Source of the DNA: Microcaldota archaeon
GTDB lineage: Archaea; Micrarchaeota; Micrarchaeia; Anstonellales; Bilamarchaeaceae
Direction of reading: 5' to 3'
DNA: 44,395 nt
Assembly: GCA_018812625.1 (NCBI GenBank)
Contig: JAHJDH010000030.1
Coordinates: 1 to 44,395 of the forward strand
Positions 12,581-33,109 of the stretch are shown piece by piece; position 1 is the first letter of the stretch; each line of letters starts with the position of its first letter. The position numbers were made by a program, and so were the translations under genes. The notes under the pieces are model-generated. The model made no database searches. It was not told the DNA's origin and saw nothing but the letters and a program-made list of their open reading frames with translations.

Positions 12581-12628
12581 ATCTTATGTCGTAATAAATG
12601 TACTCTAGTGAATCCCAGGGTAATTATA

Positions 12629-13717
12629 ATGCGGCAAAAAACCAGAAGTAGTGTTCAATCTGTCAGAAGCTCCACCAAGGAGCCTTTAGCCGAAGGCCTG
12701 CAGATTGCCGTTCCGACTGATTCTAGAGGAAGAAGAATGTGGAGAAGATTAAGCGATGATCAAATTATCGAGTTTGCAAAGAAATTGATGGATGAGGGGA
12801 ATTTAACTGGACGGAAAGAATTAATCAAGTCAGATCGTGGTTTATATCGTGTTTTAAGGAAGAGAGGCTTGCTTGATGAGATTGGTTTTGCTCAGAAAAA
12901 AAGAAAGCCAAGATCATGGAAGGATAGGACTGACGAAGAAGTTGTTGAGTTTGCTAGGAAAGTGCTGAAAGAGAATGAAATTACTAGGATGAGCGAGTTG
13001 AATCAAATTGATTCTGGATTGTATGTTGTTTTGAGGGAAAGAGGATTATTTGATAGAGTTGGCGTTGAGGGAAGACGAAGATCCTGGAAGATCATGAGTG
13101 ATGAAAAGATTGTTGAACTTGCAAAGAAAGTAATGGAAGACGAAGGCCTAACTGAAAGGGGAGAATTGAGGAAAATTGATCTTGGATTGTATTATATTTT
13201 GAGGAGAAGGAAACTTCTTGATAAAATTGATTTTGATAATAAAATAAGAGAGAAAAGATCCTGGAAGCTCATGAGTGATGAAGAGATTGTTGAACTTGCA
13301 AGAAAAGTGATGAGAAATAACATGATAACGATGAGGATAGGATTACAGGCTGCTGATTGTGGATTGTATAATGTTTTGAGAAAAAGAGGATTGCTTGATG
13401 AATTAGATTTTCAGGAGGAAGTAAAAAAGAGGAGATCTTGGGCCGGGATGAGTAATACTGAGATTGCAGGACTTGCAAAAAAATTGATGAAAGAAAATTG
13501 CATAATTGGGAGGAAAGAGTTGGAGGAGGCTGATCGCGGATTGTATCGGATTTTGTGGAAAAGAGGACTGCTAGATCATGTATTTGCCCATGTAGATCGA
13601 CAAAAAGCTGACCTGGCAAGAGACGCAGTAATTGACGCACTGGATGCGTTTGTTGCAAATGACAATGCTGTTTCGGAGGATGATGTTGCATCAGAAAACT
13701 GCAGAAGCCTCCAGTAA
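12629..13717 (+). CDS. Helical-repeat protein 1: five ~57-aa repeats plus a C-terminal domain
   Basis: Repeats of RSWKxMSDEEIVELARKVMxENxITxRxELxxxDxGLYxxLRKRGLLDxV; ORF track begins at GTG 12608, ATG at 12629 aligns with the paralogue. Confidence 0.85.
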   Translation: MRQKTRSSVQSVRSSTKEPLAEGLQIAVPTDSRGRRMWRRLSDDQIIEFAKKLMDEGNLTGRKELIKSDRGLYRVLRKRGLLDEIGFAQKKRKPRSWKDRTDEEVVEFARKVLKENEITRMSELNQIDSGLYVVLRERGLFDRVGVEGRRRSWKIMSDEKIVELAKKVMEDEGLTERGELRKIDLGLYYILRRRKLLDKIDFDNKIREKRSWKLMSDEEIVELARKVMRNNMITMRIGLQAADCGLYNVLRKRGLLDELDFQEEVKKRRSWAGMSNTEIAGLAKKLMKENCIIGRKELEEADRGLYRILWKRGLLDHVFAHVDRQKADLARDAVIDALDAFVANDNAVSEDDVASENCRSLQ

Positions 13718-13758: not shown

Positions 13759-15090
13759 TTGCAATTTACTGTTCCGACTGATTCTAGCGGAAGAAGATTA
13801 TGGGCTAAGATGAGTGATGAGCAGGTTGTTGGGTTTGCAAAGAAACTGATTAAAGAGAGGGGGATAACTGGGGTAAACGAACTTGGTCAAATTGATTCTG
13901 GTTTGCACCGTATTTTGAGGATAAGAGAATTGTTTTGTGCAGTTGGATTTGAAAATAGGCCAAGAAAAAGAAGATCCTGGAAGAGTATGAATGATGAGGA
14001 AATTGTTGAATATGCAAAAAAAGTAATGACTGAGAAGAAGATAACTGGCATTGGCGAATTAGGCAGAACTGATCCTGGACTACATACAATTTTGACTAAA
14101 AGAGGATTGCTTGATCAAGTCGGTTTTGAGGAAAAATACCGGAATTGGAAAGACATGGATGATGAAGGACTCATAGGCCTTACGAGGAGAACAATGAAGT
14201 CTAAAGACATAACTGGGAGGAGCGAGTTGCAAGAATCCGATCCTGGATTGTATCGGGTTTTGGTGAAAAGAAACCTGCTTGATAAAGTCGGATTTGAGGA
14301 TAAACGAAGATCATGGAAGGATGTGGGTGATGAAGAAATTCTTGAACTTGCAAGGGAAGTAATGAAGTCCCATAAGATAACTAGCAGAAGCCAACTGCAG
14401 GAGGTTGATTCTGGTTTATGTAAAATTTTGAGAGCAAGAGGGTTGATGGACGAAGTCAGATTTGTTGAGAAATTAAGACGCTGGAGTGATATGAGTGATG
14501 GCGATCTCATTGAATTTGCAAAGAGAGTAATGAAGGATAATGGTATAACTGGAAAAAGAGAGTTGGAAAATATAAACTCCGGAGCATATAATAACTTGAG
14601 AAAAAGAGGATTACTTGATCAAGTTGGGTTTGAGGAAAAAAGAAGAAAGAGGAGATTCTGGAACGATGTCAGTGATGAGGAAATTGTTGGGCTGGCCAGG
14701 AAATTGATAGAAGAAAATGGCATACGAAGTAGACTGAAATTCAAGGCTGCTGATTCAGGATTACATGCAGTTCTAAGAGTGAGGAATTTGCTTGATAAAC
14801 TTCAATTTAAGGAAAAAAGCAGAACTCATACCTCTTGGAAAGATATGACTAATGAAGAGATTGTTGAGTTTGCGAGAAGATTGATTAAAGAAAAGACTAT
14901 TGTTACCAGGAAGGAACTGAGAACAGAACACCGGGGTTTGTCCGCTGTTTTGAGAAGAAGAGGTCTTCTCGACCAAGTATTCGCTAGAATAGATCAGCAA
15001 AAAGTCGACATGGCTAGAGACGCCGTAATAGATGCTTTAGAAGCATTTGCTGCAAATGACAATTCTATTTCTGAAGATGAGGTTGCATGA
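13759..15090 (+). CDS. Helical-repeat protein 2: seven ~57-aa repeats plus the same C-terminal domain
   Basis: Same repeat consensus; shared C-term RQKxDxARDAVIDALxAFxANDNxxSEDxVA; coding similarity continues upstream of the TTG at 13759 to about 13690. Confidence 0.8.
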   Translation: MQFTVPTDSSGRRLWAKMSDEQVVGFAKKLIKERGITGVNELGQIDSGLHRILRIRELFCAVGFENRPRKRRSWKSMNDEEIVEYAKKVMTEKKITGIGELGRTDPGLHTILTKRGLLDQVGFEEKYRNWKDMDDEGLIGLTRRTMKSKDITGRSELQESDPGLYRVLVKRNLLDKVGFEDKRRSWKDVGDEEILELAREVMKSHKITSRSQLQEVDSGLCKILRARGLMDEVRFVEKLRRWSDMSDGDLIEFAKRVMKDNGITGKRELENINSGAYNNLRKRGLLDQVGFEEKRRKRRFWNDVSDEEIVGLARKLIEENGIRSRLKFKAADSGLHAVLRVRNLLDKLQFKEKSRTHTSWKDMTNEEIVEFARRLIKEKTIVTRKELRTEHRGLSAVLRRRGLLDQVFARIDQQKVDMARDAVIDALEAFAANDNSISEDEVA

Positions 15091-18163: not shown

Positions 18164-19453
18164 ATGCATATGGACTTTCTCCTACCAATACTGATATCCA
18201 TTCCAACAGCTGCCCTTCCTATAATAGGAGTATCGCTGGGTTTGGGTGTTGTTCTTGTTGCACTTGCTTACATGGTTGCATATGCCCTTCAAAGTCCTCA
18301 ACTTACTGCTATTGCAAAAGAAGAGATGGCAGCGCTTTTCTTCTCAGTATTTATTATTTTATTCTGGCTTTCTTTTGACACTACAATCAATGGGCTTACT
18401 ACTGGTCTTCTGACTTCTAGTTTGCCCCCGTCCTATCAATCATCTATTGGAAGCTCAACTTCAAATTCATTAACTACCAGTCACGTCAATCTTGCTATTG
18501 CCTCTTTGCACATTATGGATGCCAAGCTCAGGGATGCGTATGTTGATTTGTATTTATTTGAGGCATTGATAGGTTTCTTGTCGACAATTAGTTTTCCATT
18601 GGGTTCGCCCTTTCCAGCAGTGGCAATCATCTCATTTTCACTAGCTCCATTTAGCGGTCTATCCATGCTCAGTACTGCGCACACTGTCGTCGTCGAAGCT
18701 GTTGGATATCTTGTTACCATCGTCTGGGGAAAAGAATTCATTCTTTTATTTGCCCGGGATGCCGTTCCTTTATTCCTTCTTCCATTTGGGGTTACTTTGA
18801 GAGCACTCCCATTCTTTAGGAAAACTGGTTCGAGTATTATTGCGCTGGCATTTGCTCTTTATTTCGTTTTTCCATTTGCAGTCCTGCTTTCAAATTTCCT
18901 GATATTCGATATCTTCCAGCCTGCTGATTTTGCATATACTCCAGCAGCTGCAAGTTTCTTTGATACTGACAGATCCCAGAGCGATATGCAGGGTATGATA
19001 GAAGAGGGAAGCGATCCAGAAAGCGGGCCGACTCAACATTTATTTGAGCAGTTCCAGGCCGAAGATGCTGTTGAAGAATCTTACAATGATCCACTGGATT
19101 CCTGTGTCGGGAATGTAATTACCCGTTTCTTCTGCAGTGTCAAAAATATCTTCAATACTGTTACTACAGTTATAGGTGGATTTTTCTCTACTGTATTTGC
19201 AATTTGGAAATTCATGATGGGTATGACTGGGGATTTCTTCTTTACTGGGTTTAACAACCCGCTTCTTCCAGCAAGTGCATCAGCAGGACTGTATCATTTT
19301 CTTATCATGGAAATTTCGACTGTAAGTCCATATTTGATTCTTATCATGCTAACAACGGTTATTGAAATTGTTCTCACAGTTACTATGTACCGAAGCATCT
19401 CACTTGTTATAGGTGGAGAAGCAGAGTTGATTGGTTTGACAAAGGTTGTTTAG
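18164..19453 (+). CDS. Polytopic membrane protein, array member 1
   Basis: Multiple TM segments; motif A ALAYMVAYALQSPQLTAIAKEEMAALFFSVFII; motif B LRALPFFRKTGSSIIALAFALYFVFP; ends IGLTKVV. Confidence 0.85.
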   Translation: MHMDFLLPILISIPTAALPIIGVSLGLGVVLVALAYMVAYALQSPQLTAIAKEEMAALFFSVFIILFWLSFDTTINGLTTGLLTSSLPPSYQSSIGSSTSNSLTTSHVNLAIASLHIMDAKLRDAYVDLYLFEALIGFLSTISFPLGSPFPAVAIISFSLAPFSGLSMLSTAHTVVVEAVGYLVTIVWGKEFILLFARDAVPLFLLPFGVTLRALPFFRKTGSSIIALAFALYFVFPFAVLLSNFLIFDIFQPADFAYTPAAASFFDTDRSQSDMQGMIEEGSDPESGPTQHLFEQFQAEDAVEESYNDPLDSCVGNVITRFFCSVKNIFNTVTTVIGGFFSTVFAIWKFMMGMTGDFFFTGFNNPLLPASASAGLYHFLIMEISTVSPYLILIMLTTVIEIVLTVTMYRSISLVIGGEAELIGLTKVV

Positions 19454-19455
19454 GG

Positions 19456-21012
19456 ATGAAGAGATTATTATTGCTTTTACTGATAATCGGCCTTTCGGCT
19501 GCAACCGGAGACCCTCTGCTCGGAACATCTTCCAATGCGCCAAGTAATGCAATCTTAGAGCAACTCAGTTTTATCATGTCTATTCTGGTTCCTCTTATGA
19601 TGGTCATGATTGTCATGGCCGCAGTTGCACTGGCAATTGGCCAGATGTTTGGTGCTGAGACTCGCGCAAAAGCAAATACCTGGGCACACGGCATGCTTGC
19701 TGCAGTTGGCATTTCAGCACTTGCAATAGTTATGCTATATGCACTTGTTCCAGCATTTATGTCTGGTGGAACTCCATTTGAAACTGATATTAGTGTTACT
19801 ATAGAATTAATTCGTGGTATTACTGAGGCATCTCTAATCACTCTAGTTGGTGTGATGCTTGTTCTTTCTGCTGTAGTTTATGTAATTGGCCAGGTGTCAG
19901 ATGTTCAGACACGGGCAAAAGCAAGTGTATGGGCAAACGGATTACTTGCAGGCGCTATTGTAGCATCCATCCTCTATGTTATAATATTTCAAATTCTTAC
20001 TCAATTCGAAACGACTTTCTTCGGTGGCACTCCGCTCGAGCTTTATGGCCGGGTTGTGATAAACATAGTCTTTTTCGTATCATTCCTGATCCTGATCACT
20101 TACTTACTTTCTAAAGTATTCAAAGTTCCTGAATGGGAAGCTTATCTCAGTATTGAACTTTCCAATCTTATGCTATCATTTTTGATCGTATTATTTGTTG
20201 TTGGGCTATTTGCAGTTGGAACTGCTGTTTCTGCTGTTTATGGAGGCAATCCAAGTCCGCCTCTTGCTGCTGTTGATTATCTACAGACTGTAGTTGCAAA
20301 CAGTGTACTTGATGGTTTATTCGACGTATACCAAATCCAAGCATGTACATCCATACTTAGTACAATCAGCAGGAGAATTGGGGAATTTGTTCTAACTCAA
20401 ACCTACAAGGTATTTCCAGGACTTGATACATTTGTTCAAATTACAAATGTTCTGGCATTTGGCCTTGTTTCTGTTTACGGATCTCTATCTGCACAAATTG
20501 CATTTTTGTATTTCATCAATGCAACTATGGTGCCATTTTTCCTGCCAGCTGGACTCGTGCTGAGGTTCTTCCCGCCTACTAGGGATGCTGGGGCATTTTT
20601 GATTTCAATGGCATTTGGGTTCCAAATAGTGTATCCAACTACCTATCTGATCAACAAAAATATTTTCGAGGAAGTATTCCAGCTTGCTCCTGGTGATACA
20701 CTCTATGAAACTCCGACATTGCTTATTGCATCCTTGTGCGGTCCTTTCAAATATGGGGTTTATGGTGTTCTTTTCAATACTGGAATGAATCCTATTTTCG
20801 GTGCAATTCCAGGAGGGATGGTTGTTGGTAATTTCCTCGCAAGGTTATTCTCAGAGAGTTTGCTTAATTTCATTTCTATGTCAGAATTCATTATTATCAT
20901 GGAACGTGTTTCATCACTGTCACTACTAGCCCTGTTCATGCCAGCACTTTCGATGCTGATTACAATAGCTTTCATAAATGCTATGACTAAGTTTATTGTA
21001 GCAAAGGTGTAG
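19456..21012 (+). CDS. Polytopic membrane protein, array member 2, with duplicated N-terminal TM-hairpin module
   Basis: Signal-like N-term; AIGQMFGAETRAKANTWAHGMLAAVGIS and VIGQVSDVQTRAKASVWANGLLAGAIVA internal repeat; motif B LRFFPPTRDAGAFLISMAFGFQIVYP. Confidence 0.85.
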   Translation: MKRLLLLLLIIGLSAATGDPLLGTSSNAPSNAILEQLSFIMSILVPLMMVMIVMAAVALAIGQMFGAETRAKANTWAHGMLAAVGISALAIVMLYALVPAFMSGGTPFETDISVTIELIRGITEASLITLVGVMLVLSAVVYVIGQVSDVQTRAKASVWANGLLAGAIVASILYVIIFQILTQFETTFFGGTPLELYGRVVINIVFFVSFLILITYLLSKVFKVPEWEAYLSIELSNLMLSFLIVLFVVGLFAVGTAVSAVYGGNPSPPLAAVDYLQTVVANSVLDGLFDVYQIQACTSILSTISRRIGEFVLTQTYKVFPGLDTFVQITNVLAFGLVSVYGSLSAQIAFLYFINATMVPFFLPAGLVLRFFPPTRDAGAFLISMAFGFQIVYPTTYLINKNIFEEVFQLAPGDTLYETPTLLIASLCGPFKYGVYGVLFNTGMNPIFGAIPGGMVVGNFLARLFSESLLNFISMSEFIIIMERVSSLSLLALFMPALSMLITIAFINAMTKFIVAKV

Positions 21013-21014
21013 AT

Positions 21015-22442
21015 ATGGCAACTCCTGGCGAATTGATTCTTGACTTTTGGGGATTCTGGCTCTTTTTTGCAGCAGCAGCCTTGTCTATTACAACTGTCAT
21101 TATTGCACTAGTCTATATGCTATCAGAAATTCTTATGAATGATAAGATGAAAATCTGGGCAAAGAGCGAACTTAGTGAGGTTTTCTATTCTGCAATAATC
21201 ATTGTTTTAGCAGTTTCACTTACAACTCCATCAGCATCAGGAATTTCAATTATTGATAGCGTGGTTCAAGGTGCAATCGGTGGAGGTGGAGGGAATCCAG
21301 GTCCACTTGGTTCTGCAACCAGCGCATGGGTGCAGGTAAAAGATGCAAGCGGCCACCAGATTTATCAGGCAAAAAACATTTGTGATATGGGCCCTGGAAA
21401 TATTGGAGAGCCTGTATCGTCCATTTATCATGGCATTAATTCCTGCCACATGAGACTTGCTATATGGTATCTGCGCGAGGTTTTCAATGAGGCTAAGGAC
21501 TTTGCTTTTGATGTTTACCTAAGTTATATCTTTACATCAATGGTCGCAGACTTTACGATTAATATAGAATTTTTGTTTGAAAAAGCAGGATTCTTTACCT
21601 TTACTCCTTGGAGAGGATTCTTTACTGTTGGAAACACTATCAAAGCGCTGGTGTTTGATTGGGCAATAAAAATAATGATGCTCACTAAATTCCAGGAAAT
21701 AATGCTCAGATTCATTGCAACTGCACTTTTCCCTGCTCTATTCGTAATCGGTGCTCTTCTTCGAACATTCTTTTTCTCAAGAAGACTTGGGGGTTTGCTT
21801 CTTGCAATGGCAATTGCATTATACTTCATCTTTCCGGCATTCTATACTTTCGGAGCTCTTGTTATGCTCAATATCAAAAATGATCCAACTGTTACAGGTC
21901 TATGGCAAAGTGATGACAACCCGGCAAATCCTGGAAATCGTGATGCCGATCCACTTACAACCTGGAGAAATTATCCAAATCCTCCAATTGCAAATAGTAT
22001 GTACATGACTGGCAACTTTTCCATGGTTGGTGGTTCTGGTCAGTTTTCAACAGGAGAAGCTCTGGAGCGTTTACATAATTATGAAGGTATGGAATCTGAG
22101 GAATATTTCACTATTATGGAGGATCGAAATAATGATGCAACTATCCATTTTGATTTAAGCGACAACACTACTCATACTGATCAGGAGATGAATGACAGCT
22201 ATAGAAGAGCATATGAATCTGGAAGAAGCTGGTTTGATGCTGTTTCAAGGGAAGGAAAGTTTGATCAATTTGTAACTTTTGCATGGGAGCCAAATGGCCC
22301 TGTTGAAACATTATCCAGACTCACTTTCTGGTCTCTTTTCTTTTCATTATTTAGTATGATAGGCACAATAGCAGGGATAAGATCACTTTCAATTACATTT
22401 GGCGGAGACATCGAGATCGCAGGACTTACGAGGTTGATATGA
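21015..22442 (+). CDS. Polytopic membrane protein, array member 3
   Basis: Motif A ALVYMLSEILMNDKMKIWAKSELSEVFYSAIIIV; motif B LRTFFFSRRLGGLLLAMAIALYFIFP; ends IAGLTRLI. Confidence 0.85.
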   Translation: MATPGELILDFWGFWLFFAAAALSITTVIIALVYMLSEILMNDKMKIWAKSELSEVFYSAIIIVLAVSLTTPSASGISIIDSVVQGAIGGGGGNPGPLGSATSAWVQVKDASGHQIYQAKNICDMGPGNIGEPVSSIYHGINSCHMRLAIWYLREVFNEAKDFAFDVYLSYIFTSMVADFTINIEFLFEKAGFFTFTPWRGFFTVGNTIKALVFDWAIKIMMLTKFQEIMLRFIATALFPALFVIGALLRTFFFSRRLGGLLLAMAIALYFIFPAFYTFGALVMLNIKNDPTVTGLWQSDDNPANPGNRDADPLTTWRNYPNPPIANSMYMTGNFSMVGGSGQFSTGEALERLHNYEGMESEEYFTIMEDRNNDATIHFDLSDNTTHTDQEMNDSYRRAYESGRSWFDAVSREGKFDQFVTFAWEPNGPVETLSRLTFWSLFFSLFSMIGTIAGIRSLSITFGGDIEIAGLTRLI

Positions 22443-22443
22443 G

Positions 22444-23679
22444 ATGAAGAAACTATTGATGTCCTTTTTAATATTGTCTATACTAGTTTCACTCAGCTTT
22501 GCAAGTACTGATGAAAACGAGCTTGGTAATTTCTTCAATGATACAACTGACAGAATAAATAGTGAAAGTACTTCCTGGATTGCTGGACAAACTGGAGGTG
22601 TTGGTGGAGTTGTAACTGTATTCTCAAGTGTTTATGATGCATTTAGTCCTGCACAGTGTGGAGACGACTGGATCACAGGGACCGGATTTATCATCGATAC
22701 GTGGATCGCTCCAACAGTTGCTGTTCTTATTGTGGTTGTATTCGGAATCACTATCGTCTATATGCTTGGTCAATTATTCAATTTGCCAAACCTTATTGCT
22801 CTTGCAAAAGATGAGTATTACCAAGTTGCCTTTACATTTATCAGAATAGTTATAATCATTGGAATGATTGCAGCTGGTGAGACTTGGTTTGCACTTGCTG
22901 GGAGTGGTGGTGGTACTGCTGTTGATCCTATCTATGACAACCCTAACATAATCAGCATGATGGACGGGGCGATGGCATTCTCAAGACTTATGGTAGCTGA
23001 TATGGTCAAACATTACAGTATGCTTATCATGTACAATATGATCATACACACAATCTATTCGTCAACAATGTGGTTTGGGGTTACCTGGCGTGCAATGTAC
23101 TCCTTCAATCTTGGTCCTGTTCTAAAGCCACTCATTGATATTCTTGGAACTTCTTTGCAATTCCTTTCACTTGGTATAAGTGAATGGATGCTTCACCTGA
23201 TCACATTATGCATTATCAAAAAATGGGCCTGGGGGTTGTTCATTCCAGTTGGACTTCTAATGAGGTCTTTCCCCTATACTCGTAACGGAGGAGAAGCTCT
23301 GCTTGCACTTATGTTTGCACTTGTTTTGTTCTATCCATTTATGTTCCTCTTCGATTATGAGGTGCATAAGCTGATGAAAGGGAATCTTATTGATGCAGAA
23401 AGTGCCATGAGCGGCTTTATCCATAAGAGTGGAATTTTGAGCGTATTTGGGTCTGTTCTTATTGTCATGTTCCTAATGGCAGGTGTATTTGTTCCATTCT
23501 TCTTAGGTGGGGCACTATCTCTTGCCTTTGAACTGATACGTGGTGCAGTCTACTACATAGTTATAATGAGCTTATTGCTGCCGTTTTTGAACATCTTTGT
23601 TACGCTTACTGCCGCCAAAGAGAGCGCGAACTTCTTCAGAGTGGATGTGAATCTCATGTCCTTCTTGAAGATCATATAG
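22444..23679 (+). CDS. Polytopic membrane protein, array member 4 (N-terminal signal-like sequence)
   Basis: MKKLLMSFLILSILVSLSFAS; motif A IVYMLGQLFNLPNLIALAKDEYYQVAFTFIRIV; motif B MRSFPYTRNGGEALLALMFALVLFYP. Confidence 0.85.
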   Translation: MKKLLMSFLILSILVSLSFASTDENELGNFFNDTTDRINSESTSWIAGQTGGVGGVVTVFSSVYDAFSPAQCGDDWITGTGFIIDTWIAPTVAVLIVVVFGITIVYMLGQLFNLPNLIALAKDEYYQVAFTFIRIVIIIGMIAAGETWFALAGSGGGTAVDPIYDNPNIISMMDGAMAFSRLMVADMVKHYSMLIMYNMIIHTIYSSTMWFGVTWRAMYSFNLGPVLKPLIDILGTSLQFLSLGISEWMLHLITLCIIKKWAWGLFIPVGLLMRSFPYTRNGGEALLALMFALVLFYPFMFLFDYEVHKLMKGNLIDAESAMSGFIHKSGILSVFGSVLIVMFLMAGVFVPFFLGGALSLAFELIRGAVYYIVIMSLLLPFLNIFVTLTAAKESANFFRVDVNLMSFLKII

Positions 23680-23688
23680 GTTGATATT

Positions 23689-24771
23689 ATGGTTTGCACT
23701 CCTGATCAAATAATTGGATATGATTGCGGCGGTTCTGCACTTTTAGACTTTACAACTCTTGCTGGAGCAGCTCTTGTAACATCTGCTGTAATTCTTTCAG
23801 CATTATATGTCTGGGGAGCAATGTTCAGGAGCCAGCAGATCAACAATTATGTTAAGCTTGAGCTCTACGAACTTATTGTTTCTGCTTTGCTTGTTATTTT
23901 GATTACAATGGCAGTTGGTGCAATGGGCACAATAACTTTAGGAGGAGTTCTTCCAGATGGGATGCTTCCGGATGATGTTACTCAAAGCACTACAGTATAC
24001 CAGGCAACCTATCAATATTACGAGCGAGTTGGGAGTGATATGGCAGGATGGCTCAATGTTAACTACTGGCTTTCAATGTACATCGATCAGATTGCATCTG
24101 TTACTCCATATGCAAGACCTCTTGGTGTCGGTTTAGTAGCCTCTCCAATGGCAGGTTTAGCTTCCCCGCTCAAGCAGCTTCTATACAATATGTCTGTTGC
24201 TTTGTCTGTTGCATTTGTAATTAACAGCGCACAAAAATTTGTTTATCTATTTGCACTTCAGGCATTTTTGAAATACTATCTGCCAATAGGAATTTTCTTC
24301 AGAACCTTTACCCCAACCAGAAAGCTTGGTGGCGCACTAATAGGTGTAGCACTTTCATTCCTATTTGTATTTCCCGCTCTTTCAACAATCTCATATAGCA
24401 TGTTCTACAACCGTGACGCCGGGCCTTTGATTACTTTTGGAAACATGCTTACCAATTACTTTGGGGATACAACAACTGGTTTCTGGGAGCGCTTTGGAAA
24501 TTTCTTTGGAAATAACTTTACTGATGTGGGAACTAGCGTTAGTGATCTTGCTGGTGCAGCATTTGGCGGAATAGGGCAATTGCTTCAAACACTTGTTGGA
24601 GGGATTTTCCTTACAATTATGATGTTCCCTATCTCAGTTGTTAGTTATGCATTTGCAATTGGTTTTGTTATTCCAGCATTCAATATCCTTGTATTTACGC
24701 AGGTTGCAAAAACGCTTAGTAAAAGCTTTGGTGAGGAAGTAGACATTGGCTCATTGATGAGGTTAGTATAA
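23689..24771 (+). CDS. Polytopic membrane protein, array member 5
   Basis: Motif A ALYVWGAMFRSQQINNYVKLELYELIVSALLVI; motif B FRTFTPTRKLGGALIGVALSFLFVFP; ends IGSLMRLV. Confidence 0.85.
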   Translation: MVCTPDQIIGYDCGGSALLDFTTLAGAALVTSAVILSALYVWGAMFRSQQINNYVKLELYELIVSALLVILITMAVGAMGTITLGGVLPDGMLPDDVTQSTTVYQATYQYYERVGSDMAGWLNVNYWLSMYIDQIASVTPYARPLGVGLVASPMAGLASPLKQLLYNMSVALSVAFVINSAQKFVYLFALQAFLKYYLPIGIFFRTFTPTRKLGGALIGVALSFLFVFPALSTISYSMFYNRDAGPLITFGNMLTNYFGDTTTGFWERFGNFFGNNFTDVGTSVSDLAGAAFGGIGQLLQTLVGGIFLTIMMFPISVVSYAFAIGFVIPAFNILVFTQVAKTLSKSFGEEVDIGSLMRLV

Positions 24772-25853
24772 TGACATTTGTATCAAGTTTCTATGGCGGC
24801 GTATACGGTGATTGGACTACAATAGCAATTGCAGCTGCCGCCATTTCAGTTATTGGCTCATCCATGCTCATCATGCTCTCACGTTTGTTTGGCCTCAAAA
24901 ACCTGGAACAGATTGCAAAAACAGAATTCATCTATGCAGCATCCACAGTTTTGATTGTTATGATGGTGGCAACTCTTATCATGGCAGGCGAGCCAATGCT
25001 TGCTGGAGGATCCAGCAGCATTGTCAGATCATTATATCTTACTTCTGTGGGCTGTGATCCCAGCGTTGCAGCTTCCTTCCCAGGGCAGGAAACTCTGATT
25101 GACTGGATGAAACTTTATCTTGCAACTCCTGCAGAATGTGTCCAGGAATTCATGAATGTTCTATACTACCTTAGTGTTCCTGTTGAAGGAATGGCATCAG
25201 TATATATGGAAATTTTCATGTCTGAGCATGCCTCTGGTTTTGGTGTCAAATGGCTCGCTGAGCGTATCACAAACACTACGCAATCTCTTACGTTCTATAT
25301 GTATATTTACTATCTCCTGGTTCACATACTGAATTTCGTTAAATTCTATGCCGGCTTCTTCTTTTCAATAGGAGTTGCCCTGCGTGCATTTCCGCCGACA
25401 AGAGGTGTTGGAGCGTATTTAATGGCAATAACATTTGGCCTTTATTTCATATTTCCACTAACCTACATTCTAGTTGCAACAATATCCCTTCCACATACTG
25501 CCTCAAATATTGTTGTAGCTGGTTCTGGAACTCAAGCATGCACTCCAAATCTTGATGGCAGTTTCGAATATATCTGTGCGCTTCCTCAAGTAACTTCGCC
25601 AGAAGAATACCAATGCGGGGGGGCTGATTCTGGAACTGTTGGAAGATTTGCTGATCAGCTTAGGGAGAATTCCGATGCGCTTCAAGATATGCTTACTCTC
25701 AAGGTCAATGGATTTACAAAACACCTGGTTTCTGTTATCTGTATTTTCCCAATGATCTCTCTAGTTGTTCTTCTGACATTTGTACTCAATACAACTAACT
25801 TATTTGGTGGAAATATTCCAGAAATCGGAAGAGGCCTTGTGAAGCTCATCTGA
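24771..25853 (+). CDS. Polytopic membrane protein, array member 6
   Basis: Motif A MLIMLSRLFGLKNLEQIAKTEFIYAASTVLIVM; motif B LRAFPPTRGVGAYLMAITFGLYFIFP; start overlaps the previous stop by 1 nt (ATGA-type coupling). Confidence 0.85.
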   Translation: MTFVSSFYGGVYGDWTTIAIAAAAISVIGSSMLIMLSRLFGLKNLEQIAKTEFIYAASTVLIVMMVATLIMAGEPMLAGGSSSIVRSLYLTSVGCDPSVAASFPGQETLIDWMKLYLATPAECVQEFMNVLYYLSVPVEGMASVYMEIFMSEHASGFGVKWLAERITNTTQSLTFYMYIYYLLVHILNFVKFYAGFFFSIGVALRAFPPTRGVGAYLMAITFGLYFIFPLTYILVATISLPHTASNIVVAGSGTQACTPNLDGSFEYICALPQVTSPEEYQCGGADSGTVGRFADQLRENSDALQDMLTLKVNGFTKHLVSVICIFPMISLVVLLTFVLNTTNLFGGNIPEIGRGLVKLI

Positions 25854-29057: not shown

Positions 29058-29375
29058 GTGAAAAATCCAATTCCACTTATTTTTATTTTTCTTCTTTTTC
29101 TCTCTCTTGCTCTAATATTTCTATTTACTATCTCAAATCCGGTTTCTCCAAAGATCAATGCTACAAATACCAAGGTTTGTCAAAATGGAGAGACTGTTGA
29201 ATGTACTGTAAGCTCATGTACTGGGGTTTCAACTTGCCATAATGCAAAATGGTCAATGTGCATTTGGGATAGGATTTGCGATCCCGGCTCCAGAGTTGCA
29301 TGTGCAGAATCTGGCTGTTCAAAGGGTTTCAAAGAATGCAATTCCTGTGGTACTGGATATGGGGAATGCCGTTAA
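29058..29375 (+). CDS. Small membrane-anchored or secreted Cys-rich protein with duplicated Cys motif
   Basis: GTG start; N-terminal TM; CQNGETVECTVSSCTGVSTC and CDPGSRVACAESGCSKGFKEC. Confidence 0.7.
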   Translation: MKNPIPLIFIFLLFLSLALIFLFTISNPVSPKINATNTKVCQNGETVECTVSSCTGVSTCHNAKWSMCIWDRICDPGSRVACAESGCSKGFKECNSCGTGYGECR

Positions 29376-29412
29376 TGTGGCTAAAAAATGAAAATTGAGA
29401 ACAAACCTATGC

Positions 29413-29420
29413 TTTTTAAA
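29413..29420 (+). promoter_or_regulatory. TATA-box-like element for the pilin-like operon
   Basis: tttttaaa about 28 bp before ATG 29445. Confidence 0.4.
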
Positions 29421-29444
29421 TGATTCCTCATCAAATGGGATATT

Positions 29445-30128
29445 ATGCGCGCATTCATATTCTCATTAGATGCCTTTGTTGCATTTACTTTGGCTCTTGT
29501 GGCTATATATTCGCTAATATTCTTCTCTAGTGTCCCATCGTCATATTACTATCTTTTGACACAAGGACACTATTTGACAAGAGACGTTCTTTTATCTCTG
29601 TCAACTACTACTTGCGATTATGATTACTACAACTGTAAAACTGATGGCTCAATGCTTGATAATATCGTTGCTGAGGATGATCCTGCTTTTAAGGAAAATA
29701 TCATTCGTGGAACTATTGGGCAGATGATTCCAAATCAGTTTGGCTACCGTGTTGAGATAAGTTCTGACCACGGAACAAGCTGGGATATGGTCTATGATAC
29801 TGCAGTTGGCTCAGCCGAGACTCATGCAGATCAAAGCAAAAAACTTTCTGTTTCATCTCAGGTTATATCTTTTGGCTATTCCGCTAAAGTGAATAAGCTG
29901 GAAAATTCTCCATACAATTACCTCACATGCGGATTTGCCGCTGAAGGCAGTAGTTCAAGCAGCGGGGATGAAGATGTTGACTGGGGTATTATCACTTGTG
30001 GAACTACAAACATTACAAGTGGCGACAATGACACAGCAATTGGAAATACTCACCCAAGCGGAATTCTTGGCGGAGATCTTGTTCCATCATCAGATGTAAA
30101 AGTCGTAAAACTTACAGTATACATATAG
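29445..30128 (+). CDS. Pilin-like secreted protein (FSLDA-type N-terminus)
   Basis: MRAFIFSLDAFVAFTLALVAIYSLIFFSS single N-terminal TM plus Ser/Thr/Asn-rich ectodomain. Confidence 0.7.
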   Translation: MRAFIFSLDAFVAFTLALVAIYSLIFFSSVPSSYYYLLTQGHYLTRDVLLSLSTTTCDYDYYNCKTDGSMLDNIVAEDDPAFKENIIRGTIGQMIPNQFGYRVEISSDHGTSWDMVYDTAVGSAETHADQSKKLSVSSQVISFGYSAKVNKLENSPYNYLTCGFAAEGSSSSSGDEDVDWGIITCGTTNITSGDNDTAIGNTHPSGILGGDLVPSSDVKVVKLTVYI

Positions 30129-30137
30129 GTGGTATGG

Positions 30138-31703
30138 ATGAATCGAAAAGGATTTTTATTTACAGTAACTGTTTTCCTGGTATTGATGTATATCCTTCTT
30201 ACCATCTCAGTATGGGTTAAGGGTATTGAGACTTCTGAGCGTGCATTCTCTGAATTCTACAAAGAATCTACAGTAGAGCTTGCAATCGAACAGATAACTC
30301 CTGCCAAACTCGATAATGTTACTTATGTTATATTGAACCGAGGCGTATCAAGACTCAATGATAATGCCATTAATTATCCACTACTTCAGGGTACTTCTGA
30401 GGAGAATGAGAATATAGAGAGTGCGCTTTATGAACTTCTTACTGAAGGATCTGCAGACCCATCATATTTCCATGGTTCTGGCGGAGATATTAGCACTCCA
30501 GAGAACTCTTCTCTAAATGCATGGGCAGAAAACCTGAATTCTTCTCTTCTTGCTATCGGAGTATATATCAGCGAGTTTGAAGTAACTAACTTCAAAGTTG
30601 GCCAAAGCGATATTGATCTGGTTAACTATTCATTTGATATTGAGCTCAAGCTTCGTGACTTTACAAATACATCTGCAGTTGCAAGAAGCTATCATATTGA
30701 AAACGAGATTGATGTTTCTGGGCTTGTTGATCCTGCTCTTGCTCGTGAAACCAGCGTGGCAGCAGGCGAAGATCTCACAGCATACAGGCAGTTCTTCTTC
30801 AACAAGGATGATTACTCAGAATACTCTGATATTACAGTTCATCAGATGTCCGCATCAACTACTGAAGGCCAAGGATGGGTTTATGGTCCGCTTGCTCTTG
30901 CAAACGGAACTGATGATTTAGTTCCTGAAGCAACTTCAATTGCCCCAAGTAAAAGAAGCCAGTATATCTTAGTTGGGGATTATTCAGAGATCATTGCCCT
31001 AGATCAATTTATATACAATCAATTTGCTGGATTTATCCTAACTGATACTCCAACTGTAACTTCAACTGCTTGTGGTAATGTTCAGGGTAATACTTTCAAT
31101 GCAATCGAATATTCTTCAGCTCCAGAATGTGAGATCGGAATGGATCATCCATTTACTGGAAAGCCATTTATCGTTTCATCTGGATTTTCTCCAGCTTCTG
31201 CTCCAGAATGTCCAATATTAGATGGAAATGAACAGATTCGAAGGTGTGTATTATTTGTAAATACTTATCTTGAATCTGAGGTTGCGATTGACCCAACAAG
31301 AAAGCTTGTTGCAAGTGGCAGTGGAATTTATGAAGTTGAAGAAATCCGAGACTTTGTAATGTGTGGTTACTATACTCACAATCCAAAAGCCCCATCATAT
31401 ATGCAAAGGCTTCTCAATGATTCTTATCTTAGAAACAGCACTGAATTCGGTATTGAAACATTTGTGATTGGTAATTATGCAAATGAGTATTCAGTCTATG
31501 ATACCAGAAGCAGATTAGATCGGGAACTACTCAATGGCAGTATAGACGGCGTGAAAATACGCGGTCTTCCAGGATGCCGTAATTTCGCATCCTGTGCAGA
31601 CAGTCCAATAACTGGTATATTCGCAGTTAGTGATGATTCTGCAATTGACTATGGACTTGATGACATTGCTTGTGACAATGGTGCTGCGGGGTGTGACTCA
31701 TGA
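30138..31703 (+). CDS. Large membrane-anchored extracellular protein of the pilin-like operon
   Basis: MNRKGFLFTVTVFLVLMYILLTISVWVKG single N-terminal TM; about 490-aa ectodomain; translationally linked to neighbours. Confidence 0.75.
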   Translation: MNRKGFLFTVTVFLVLMYILLTISVWVKGIETSERAFSEFYKESTVELAIEQITPAKLDNVTYVILNRGVSRLNDNAINYPLLQGTSEENENIESALYELLTEGSADPSYFHGSGGDISTPENSSLNAWAENLNSSLLAIGVYISEFEVTNFKVGQSDIDLVNYSFDIELKLRDFTNTSAVARSYHIENEIDVSGLVDPALARETSVAAGEDLTAYRQFFFNKDDYSEYSDITVHQMSASTTEGQGWVYGPLALANGTDDLVPEATSIAPSKRSQYILVGDYSEIIALDQFIYNQFAGFILTDTPTVTSTACGNVQGNTFNAIEYSSAPECEIGMDHPFTGKPFIVSSGFSPASAPECPILDGNEQIRRCVLFVNTYLESEVAIDPTRKLVASGSGIYEVEEIRDFVMCGYYTHNPKAPSYMQRLLNDSYLRNSTEFGIETFVIGNYANEYSVYDTRSRLDRELLNGSIDGVKIRGLPGCRNFASCADSPITGIFAVSDDSAIDYGLDDIACDNGAAGCDS

Positions 31704-32128
31704 AAGGACAATCATCACTTGAACTTATGATTACAGTTGGAATAGTGATTGCATTTACGATTCCAGTATTGTTCCTGCTACTTTCAGCAACCTCTATTGG
31801 TTATGAGGATACTGCAAAAGCCCAGGCAGATGCTTCGTCAAGAACTCTCTCTGATACTATGAACTCAGTTTATTCTCAGGGTCCTGGGGCAAAGAGATTG
31901 ATTCTTCTAAATGTTCCAGCATCAACTCACGAGATATATGCATCTGATGGGGAAGTGGTTGTAGTGGTAAAGCTTGGAAGCGGCCAATTTGATGCAGCAT
32001 CCCCAACAATTGCAAGCATAAGCGGAGATTCGTCAACTCTTGGTACAAAGACTGGATTAATTCTGGTTAGTGTTGAGGCAGATGAAGTTACCGGAGAGGT
32101 GAGATTAGTTGATCCAACAGAATCCTGA
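31700..32128 (+). CDS. Class III signal peptide pilin-like protein
   Basis: MKGQSSLELMITVGIVIAFTIPVLFLLLSA. Confidence 0.8.
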   Translation: MKGQSSLELMITVGIVIAFTIPVLFLLLSATSIGYEDTAKAQADASSRTLSDTMNSVYSQGPGAKRLILLNVPASTHEIYASDGEVVVVVKLGSGQFDAASPTIASISGDSSTLGTKTGLILVSVEADEVTGEVRLVDPTES

Positions 32129-32633
32129 TTATAACGGTCAAGTTGCGATTGAGGGAACTTCGTCCCCTGCAAGCAACTCAAAGGGCCAAGTTGCTACCGA
32201 ATTTATGGTTTATACTACTGTATTTATGTTCATTGCAATTGCAGCATTTGTAGTTGTAAATGATATTCAAAGTACTGAAATACCTTTGCAGCAAAACAAT
32301 GTTGTTCAGGAAGTTGGCAATAGTCATGTTACTATGCTTATTCTTGCAATAAAGGGCGGTGAAGGATTTTCCTACAATTACACATTCCAAAAAACTGTCT
32401 TTAATTTACCTTATACTCTATATCTTCACAATCTCTCAAATGCTCATTATATGGTGCTTGAGTGGGAAGGGGGCTATGGAAATTATAGTTATTCTTATGA
32501 CGTTCCTTCATATAATTATATTCTTGAGGGAAGTTGCTTAGCAGATAATGTATTCGTCAGTGACGAGTGCACAAATATGTTTATGTTTTACAATGATGGT
32601 GAAAATCTTACTATCACACAGGTGGGATCATGA
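32109..32633 (+). CDS. Class III signal-like pilin with long leader
   Basis: TTG start only; ...SKGQVATEFMVYTTVFMFIAIAAFVVVNDIQST; overlaps previous gene by 20 bp. Confidence 0.7.
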   Translation: MIQQNPDYNGQVAIEGTSSPASNSKGQVATEFMVYTTVFMFIAIAAFVVVNDIQSTEIPLQQNNVVQEVGNSHVTMLILAIKGGEGFSYNYTFQKTVFNLPYTLYLHNLSNAHYMVLEWEGGYGNYSYSYDVPSYNYILEGSCLADNVFVSDECTNMFMFYNDGENLTITQVGS

Positions 32634-33109
32634 AAGGACAATACTTCAGTTTTGATGCAATTATAGCTTCGGTGATTTTCGTTTTGGCACTAGTTGCCTT
32701 ATTGTCATACTGGCACAGCGTCAGATCATTTTTGGATTTCCAAAATGATGCTCTGTCTAAAGATGTGGTTAGGGTTTCAAACCTAGTATTTACTCCACCC
32801 TCACCATCTTCTGATTGTGGTACTCTGGATCGATTAGGATTTGCAAATGACTGGAATGACAGGCGTATTAACGAGTCTCTAATCTATTGCGCTCAAGGCA
32901 AAACCCAGGCGCAGCTGCGTGATCTGCTAGGCTCATCCAATAATCTCTCACTTCGCTTTGAGAATCTGGCAAATGGAACTGTCACTGTTGTAGGTGGCGA
33001 CATTCCAGTCGAGACAACTGATGTTATCCGAGTGAGGAGGCTTGCAACTGTAGTAAATTCCACTGGCGGAACTTATCTTGCTGCACTTGATATGAGTCTC
33101 TATAAATAG
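32630..33109 (+). CDS. Pilin-like protein (GQ/FSFDA-type N-terminus)
   Basis: MKGQYFSFDAIIASVIFVLALVALLSYWHSV. Confidence 0.75.
   Translation: MKGQYFSFDAIIASVIFVLALVALLSYWHSVRSFLDFQNDALSKDVVRVSNLVFTPPSPSSDCGTLDRLGFANDWNDRRINESLIYCAQGKTQAQLRDLLGSSNNLSLRFENLANGTVTVVGGDIPVETTDVIRVRRLATVVNSTGGTYLAALDMSLYK

Follow-up and report, generated by a model that had tools for sequence, protein, structure and literature searches.

Among the closest described precedents for the system analysed here are the Ced system of Sulfolobales and the Ted system of Thermoproteales, chromosomal and relaxase-free archaeal derivatives of type IV secretion systems (T4SS) that consist of a VirB6-like channel (CedA/TedA), a VirB2-like pilin (CedA1/TedC) and a VirB4/HerA-like ATPase (CedB/TedB). 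The N-terminus of CedA has been reported to resemble the pilin CedA1 (PMC9905601); in Saccharolobus, both CedA and CedE are required for DNA import, and a hetero-oligomer of the two was proposed (PMC11868833). In the T4SS of R388, VirB6 is a membrane homopentamer with seven helices, the first of which is the proposed site of VirB2 recruitment, and VirB4 is a hexamer of dimers (PMC9259494). Rickettsiales have four or five tandem, diverged VirB6 paralogues, some of them greatly enlarged, in an operon with virB3/virB4 (PMC7648143), and Patescibacteria, with their reduced episymbiont genomes, carry relaxase-free T4SS with VirB4, VirB6 and arrays of VirB2-like pilins (PMC12102498). Here we describe a head-to-tail array of six genes on a contig of 44,395 nucleotides (JAHJDH010000030.1; "the window", our contig C12) from a 1.27-Mb, 85% complete genome of a Micrarchaeota archaeon. 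We consider it likely that each of its genes codes for a different polytopic subunit of VirB6/CedA type, and that the six belong to a domesticated T4SS/Ced-like transfer machine that Micrarchaeota carry on the chromosome.

The array spans positions 18164-25853 of the + strand. Its six open reading frames (ORFs) nearly abut, with gaps of 2, 2, 1, 9 and -1 nt (P1-P2, P2-P3, P3-P4, P4-P5 and P5-P6, respectively), just as the original prediction, made from the letters of the window, had placed them:

18164..19453, + strand: P1, position 1, polytopic VirB6/CedA-like channel subunit of 429 amino acids (ORF, family, position orthology, 7 predicted hydrophobic segments)
19456..21012, + strand: P2, position 2, two VirB2-like pilin hairpins and a VirB6/CedA-like subunit, 518 amino acids (ORF, VirB2-like profile)
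21015..22442, + strand: P3, position 3, 475 amino acids (ORF, position orthology)
22444..23679, + strand: P4, position 4, 411 amino acids (ORF, position orthology)
23689..24771, + strand: P5, position 5, 360 amino acids (ORF, all-helical AlphaFold2 model)
24771..25853, + strand: P6, position 6, 360 amino acids (ORF, AlphaFold2 model)

The six proteins are true homologues. Pairwise phmmer comparisons join all of them transitively (best E 5.8e-11), and each matches at least one of the others at E<=1.1e-6. The array genes have diverged from one another within a single, unnamed family of polytopic proteins. There were zero matches to the array proteins in Pfam, NCBIfam, PHROGs and the PDB sequences, and we rejected a known transporter or secretion family on this ground; membership of a known unrelated transporter family, named in the original prediction as the result that would speak against it, was thus looked for and not observed.

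The six proteins were also said to share a motif (motif B), and we could locate it in each of them, at the following positions:

18779..18829, + strand: motif B in P1, LPFGVTLRALPFFRKTG, residues 206-222
20542..20592, + strand: motif B in P2, LPAGLVLRFFPPTRDAG, residues 363-379
21741..21791, + strand: motif B in P3, FVIGALLRTFFFSRRLG, residues 243-259
23242..23292, + strand: motif B in P4, IPVGLLMRSFPYTRNGG, residues 267-283
24280..24330, + strand: motif B in P5, LPIGIFFRTFTPTRKLG, residues 198-214
25362..25412, + strand: motif B in P6, FSIGVALRAFPPTRGVG, residues 198-214

MAFFT aligned the motif in all six proteins; G209, R213, R219, G222 and P237, numbered as in P1, do not vary among the proteins of the window. 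Among 48 diverse family members R213 and G222 are still invariant, and G209, R219 and P237 are found in at least 90%. A strict pattern of motif B recovers roughly half the array proteins, 15 of the 17 solitary proteins described below, and none of the unrelated ORFs among the ~5,820 from the same loci; its 8 background matches are all array members in partial (truncated) arrays. The basic-hydrophobic tail that had been noticed at the end of each protein is present in five of the positions, and P2 ends in FIVAKV instead. In P6, the G/E/GRG/K residues of the C-terminus are invariant across relatives.

Next, we asked how constant the array is in loci fetched across the order and the class. Every intact array, that is, every array lying as a whole inside the fetched stretch, has exactly six members (52/52). 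Three further loci have multiple members; one of them contains a broken gene (L048) and two run off the end of the fetched stretch (L053, L060). As in the window, the genes are closely packed, with median intergenic gaps of 0-1 nt. In comparisons between 38 arrays, the best BLAST match is a protein at the same position in 70-92% of cases, as opposed to 17% if matches were random. In a tree of 102 array and 11 solitary proteins, positions 1, 3 and 5 form single clades, although the long branches call for caution, and the tree needs 8 changes of position label (minimum 6, shuffled mean 76.5). Since best matches fall on the same position and label changes in the tree are few, the six positions diverged before the sampled lineages split. 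P3 is often enlarged in relatives, up to 1143 amino acids.

The profile search of the phylum detected the channel family in 259 of 296 Micrarchaeota genomes. In some of them a solitary family member of 313-369 amino acids is the only one, in others it is found alongside the array. Several genomes, including that of the window (contig C26, locus L032), have a second complete set of six, the members of which group with their positional counterparts.

A connection to a T4SS within the array itself is found in P2. This protein is longer than the other positions because of two extra N-terminal domains that resemble VirB2 pilins, both recovered with a clean pilin profile and also in a genome search with the pilin alignment:

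19507..19734, + strand: VirB2-like pilin domain 1 in P2, residues 18-93 (independent E-value 2e-9)
19720..20001, + strand: VirB2-like pilin domain 2 in P2, residues 89-182 (independent E-value 7.5e-10)

The profile used in the search for fusions was built from stand-alone small proteins only, and it matched no unrelated ORF at E<0.01. The other type I arrays fetched for the genus of the window have the double fusion in P2 as well, as does one array of another genus in its family (G022); in two further genera of that family (G017, G019), P1 carries a single pilin fusion. Such fusions fit the proposal that VirB2 is recruited by the first helix of VirB6 (PMC9259494).

The other connection is provided by linked genes. 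At solitary loci, a small protein matching TrbC/VirB2 and T4SS_pilin is followed by a channel-like protein, a protein with two transmembrane segments (S277) and a HerA/VirB4-like ATPase. In two other families of the class, the complete array stands in such a context. The operon of G087 and G100 (family f17; L211, L212) consists of two pilins, the six array genes, two S277, the ATPase and the genes tm165, cc and p682; in G065 and G097 (family f12; L124, L125) a pilin gene and one other gene precede the six array genes, which are followed by two S277, the ATPase, tm165, cc and p682. The neighbourhood survey suggested with the original prediction therefore found a VirB4/CedB/HerA-like ATPase contiguous with six-gene arrays, and these operons, together with the solitary locus and the pilin fusion in P2, support the lead towards VirB6/CedA given there.

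The best named NCBIfam matches of the ATPase are CedB (E=1e-18) and CedD. Both the ATPase and the pilin are significantly similar by profile to their counterparts in R388 (IncW): hhalign gives E=1.8e-6 for the ATPase and the VirB4 TrwK over the ATPase/motor domain (reversed control 0.24) and E=7.4e-6 for the pilin and the VirB2 TrwL (reversed control 0.19). Among the 22 members of the pilin alignment, 16 match Pfam TrbC/VirB2 and 15 match T4SS_pilin; for the two pilins displayed individually, the Pfam matches lie below the curated cut-off. We also considered S277 as VirB3 or as the N-terminal domain of VirB4, but its profile matched neither VirB4 nor VirB3 of R388, and we therefore left it unnamed. 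Outer-membrane core complex (OMCC) components, VirB8-VirB10, VirB11 and VirD4 were not seen at the inspected loci.

In the genome of the window, contig C11 (L145) carries the cassette S277-ATPase-tm165-cc-p682, contig C23 (L146) a channel-S277-ATPase locus of the solitary type, and contig C7 a VirB2-like gene that stands alone. Most of the tested genomes of the class that lack the channel family or the array also lack the ATPase; in G086, G104, G107, G113, G114, G120 and G174 we found only weak HerA-like similarity and no ATPase.

Several results weigh against assigning the array to a T4SS/Ced-like machine. In the genome of the window the array is adjacent neither to the ATPase nor to the stand-alone pilin gene. 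Two genomes, G055 (83% complete) and G075 (92% complete, with a solitary member only), have the ATPase cassette and no detected array; in G067 the expected junction falls at a contig end. We found neither a relaxase nor a VirD4 coupling protein in the Pfam-scanned neighbourhoods of arrays and solitary members, the genomes as a whole not having been searched for them; Ced lacks them too. Furthermore, we were not able to show a significant similarity to VirB6 itself. The array family has no match to Pfam TrbL/VirB6, and hhalign against bacterial VirB6 gives a probability of at most 1.7% for the six positions and the solitary set. The AlphaFold2 models of P5 (mean predicted local distance difference test score, pLDDT, 77.7) and P6 (pLDDT 76.6) are almost all-helical and of moderate confidence. 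In the Foldseek list for P6, R388 VirB6 chains, recognised by chain length and entry title, take ranks 2, 5 and 17 of ~350,000, but at E 0.4-2.2 and a template modelling score of at most 0.32. For P5, two chains of the R388 stalk-arches-inner membrane complex (IMC) are found at ranks 2 and 8 with E>=0.55, and among the top matches no chain is identifiable as VirB6. The comparison with VirB6 that had been suggested at the outset thus agrees in its trend, and significance was not reached with either the P5 and P6 models or hhalign.

For P1, P4, P5 and the pooled profile the best local alignment, which is not significant, places LPxGxxLRxFxxTRxxG on GPLFIxxLxFxxTxRxF of R388 TrwI, so that motif B (P..G...R.F..TR) stands opposite GPLFI..L.F..T.R..F. 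The solitary set aligns with the pilin profile at its N-terminal first hairpin (P=2.7e-4, probability 42%), and P5 and P6 do so more weakly at the same place. P2 has no match in NCBIfam, and the solitary proteins have no relevant one there. Context, size and topology, along with an N-terminal hairpin reminiscent of a pilin, support well that the array proteins work like VirB6/CedA; that they are VirB6 is unproven.

The Micrarchaeota set resembles Ced and Ted in its components, and the N-terminus of the solitary channel protein may resemble a pilin, as reported for CedA. However, Ced has one CedA, with the paralogue CedE in Saccharolobus, whereas the array always has six distinct subunits; pilin-channel fusions, a separate S277 beside the ATPase and the extra genes tm165, cc and p682 are further differences. 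With the rvh T4SS of Rickettsiales (virB6-1 to virB6-4 or -5) the array shares tandem diverged paralogues, some of them enlarged, and small, host-dependent cells. The Rickettsiales system is bacterial with four or five paralogues, whereas that of Micrarchaeota is archaeal, has six and carries VirB2-like domains fused to a channel subunit. In R388, VirB6 is a homopentamer, in contrast to six different subunits here. In Patescibacteria (bacterial monoderms, MPF-FATA lineage), on the other hand, it is the pilins that multiply, not the channel protein.

The six subunits most likely form a hetero-oligomeric membrane base, as the invariant presence of six distinct, position-orthologous members suggests. 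The alternative is that they are redundant or alternative channels, each a homo-oligomer of its own, for example for different conditions. The solitary paralogue presumably does work alone with its own ATPase, and co-assembly of the six is inferred. However, exactly six genes in fixed order, head-to-tail in all intact arrays, an early divergence without gain or loss, and a single operon-linked ATPase for six channel genes make separate channels unlikely. Even less probable, in our view, is that the array encodes a polytopic scaffold or transporter which lies near T4SS-like genes by chance in two families and acts outside that machine. The lack of significant direct similarity to VirB6 and the separation of array and ATPase in the order of the window would fit such a coincidence, but the linkage recurs in two separate families and at solitary loci, fused VirB2-like domains are present in P2 within the window's genus and in P1 within two further genera of its family, and most of the array-less genomes tested in the class lack the ATPase too.

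A different matter is what such a machine would transport. By analogy with Ced, DNA import or exchange is most likely its cargo and direction, which is favoured by the affinity of the ATPase to CedB and CedD. We regard a T4SS-like system for protein (effector) secretion or host contact, as proposed for nanohaloarchaea and Patescibacteria, as a serious, if less probable, possibility. Micrarchaeota are host-associated DPANN archaea; related, VirB4-containing systems of nanohaloarchaea have been proposed to act on hosts (PMC10266531); components of the relaxase-free T4SS of Patescibacteria are essential for epibiotic growth (PMC12102498); and giant secreted or surface proteins are encoded beside second-copy arrays. 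On the other hand, CedB and CedD, to which the ATPase is closest, are DNA importers, and neither candidate effectors nor secretion signals came to light.

For a T4SS/Ced-like transfer machine, we propose that the six subunits would assemble into one hetero-oligomeric base, probably a ring of six, that recruits VirB2-like pilins. The fused hairpins of P2 may act as permanent pilin subunits or as guides beside helix 1. The base would sit on the CedB-like motor ATPase encoded elsewhere (in the window's genome, on contig C11), and the motor would drive the transfer of DNA, possibly also of proteins, between the symbiont and another cell. In its most specific form, which we put forward tentatively and hold to be nearly as probable as not, the proposal is an obligate hetero-hexameric VirB6-type base with six subunits in fixed order, one of them with two built-in VirB2-like modules. 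Bacteria have a five-fold base of VirB6 and pilus, to which this one would be a six-fold alternative; it would be served by one CedB-like motor, and in some lineages a second six-subunit set would be linked to giant surface proteins for host contact.

In the course of the analysis we made a number of additional observations on these components. In some lineages P3 and P4 are greatly enlarged (for example, 1143 and 733 amino acids in L056), and P2 of L212 has 902 amino acids; this enlargement of single positions resembles that of VirB6 in Rickettsiales. At L218 (G105:C37), an ORF of 1054 amino acids encodes a CedB-like ATPase split in frame by ~520 amino acids (match 14-297, then 297-528); the insertion is probably an intein. 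Second-copy arrays are flanked by giant proteins (L032:13281-17099 and L032:2107-5874 in G000:C26, the genome of the window, and in relatives). One is a lipoprotein-like, secreted protein of 1084-1640 amino acids directly downstream of the array; the other, of up to 1958 amino acids, has a signal peptide, a transmembrane segment and a long cytoplasmic part. Each kind (c10 and c15/c21) forms one homology cluster, and the Pfam scan gave no match for the members scanned. We set them aside as core parts, being present at only some arrays.

The surroundings of the array in the window consist of core genes such as RNA polymerase, tRNA synthetases and MCM, and in further genomes of the genus the array has the same neighbours. 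For these two reasons the array is a settled chromosomal feature rather than a mobile element. Relatives of the array proteins were not found among the viral contigs of IMG/VR; on the strength of this, the lack of a viral fold match and the core-gene surroundings we rejected a viral origin. Downstream of the array lie PIN-domain and RNA-ligase-like genes. We rejected a functional tie to them, since they are found beside the array in only one part of the order, and therefore read the adjacency as local synteny. The region 29058-33109 encodes a group of small proteins that are secreted or pilin-like, a few of them bearing class III signal peptides of the KGQSSLE/GQVATEF type; within the genus the group is conserved next to the array, and it possibly comprises type IV pilin-like genes. 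The protein encoded at 13759-15090 consists of ~7 degenerate repeats of ~55 amino acids each (SW.DM.DEEI...A...........L....SGLH..LR.RGLLD.VGF), and the ORF just before it (12608-13717) clusters with it by phmmer. The named relatives are Candidatus Micrarchaeota, except for two Ca. ainarchaeum, one 'uncultured archaeon' and one metagenome-assembled genome labelled Woesearchaeota (L091, DUGG01000077.1). The latter has a six-member array, and it may be misnamed or may carry the system outside Micrarchaeota.

Tandem VirB6 in Rickettsiales and the two-member CedA/CedE of Saccharolobus are already known. In the open-access literature that we searched there was no paper on this system in Micrarchaeota or DPANN, which is not proof of absence, and within that literature a strict set of six throughout most of an archaeal phylum and a channel subunit with fused VirB2-like domains appear undescribed. 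Bacteria that have been studied in depth employ a single protein in multiple copies, whereas the tiny, symbiotic Micrarchaeota have six related ones, and the array probably reveals an unusual transfer channel that is found across most of the phylum. Six obligatory paralogues in one channel, if true, would be a new T4SS architecture in which the place of each subunit can be tracked. A chromosomally fixed T4SS/Ced-like machine present nearly phylum-wide would be a testable candidate for the means by which DPANN episymbionts, with their genomes of ~1 Mb, exchange DNA or other matter with their hosts.

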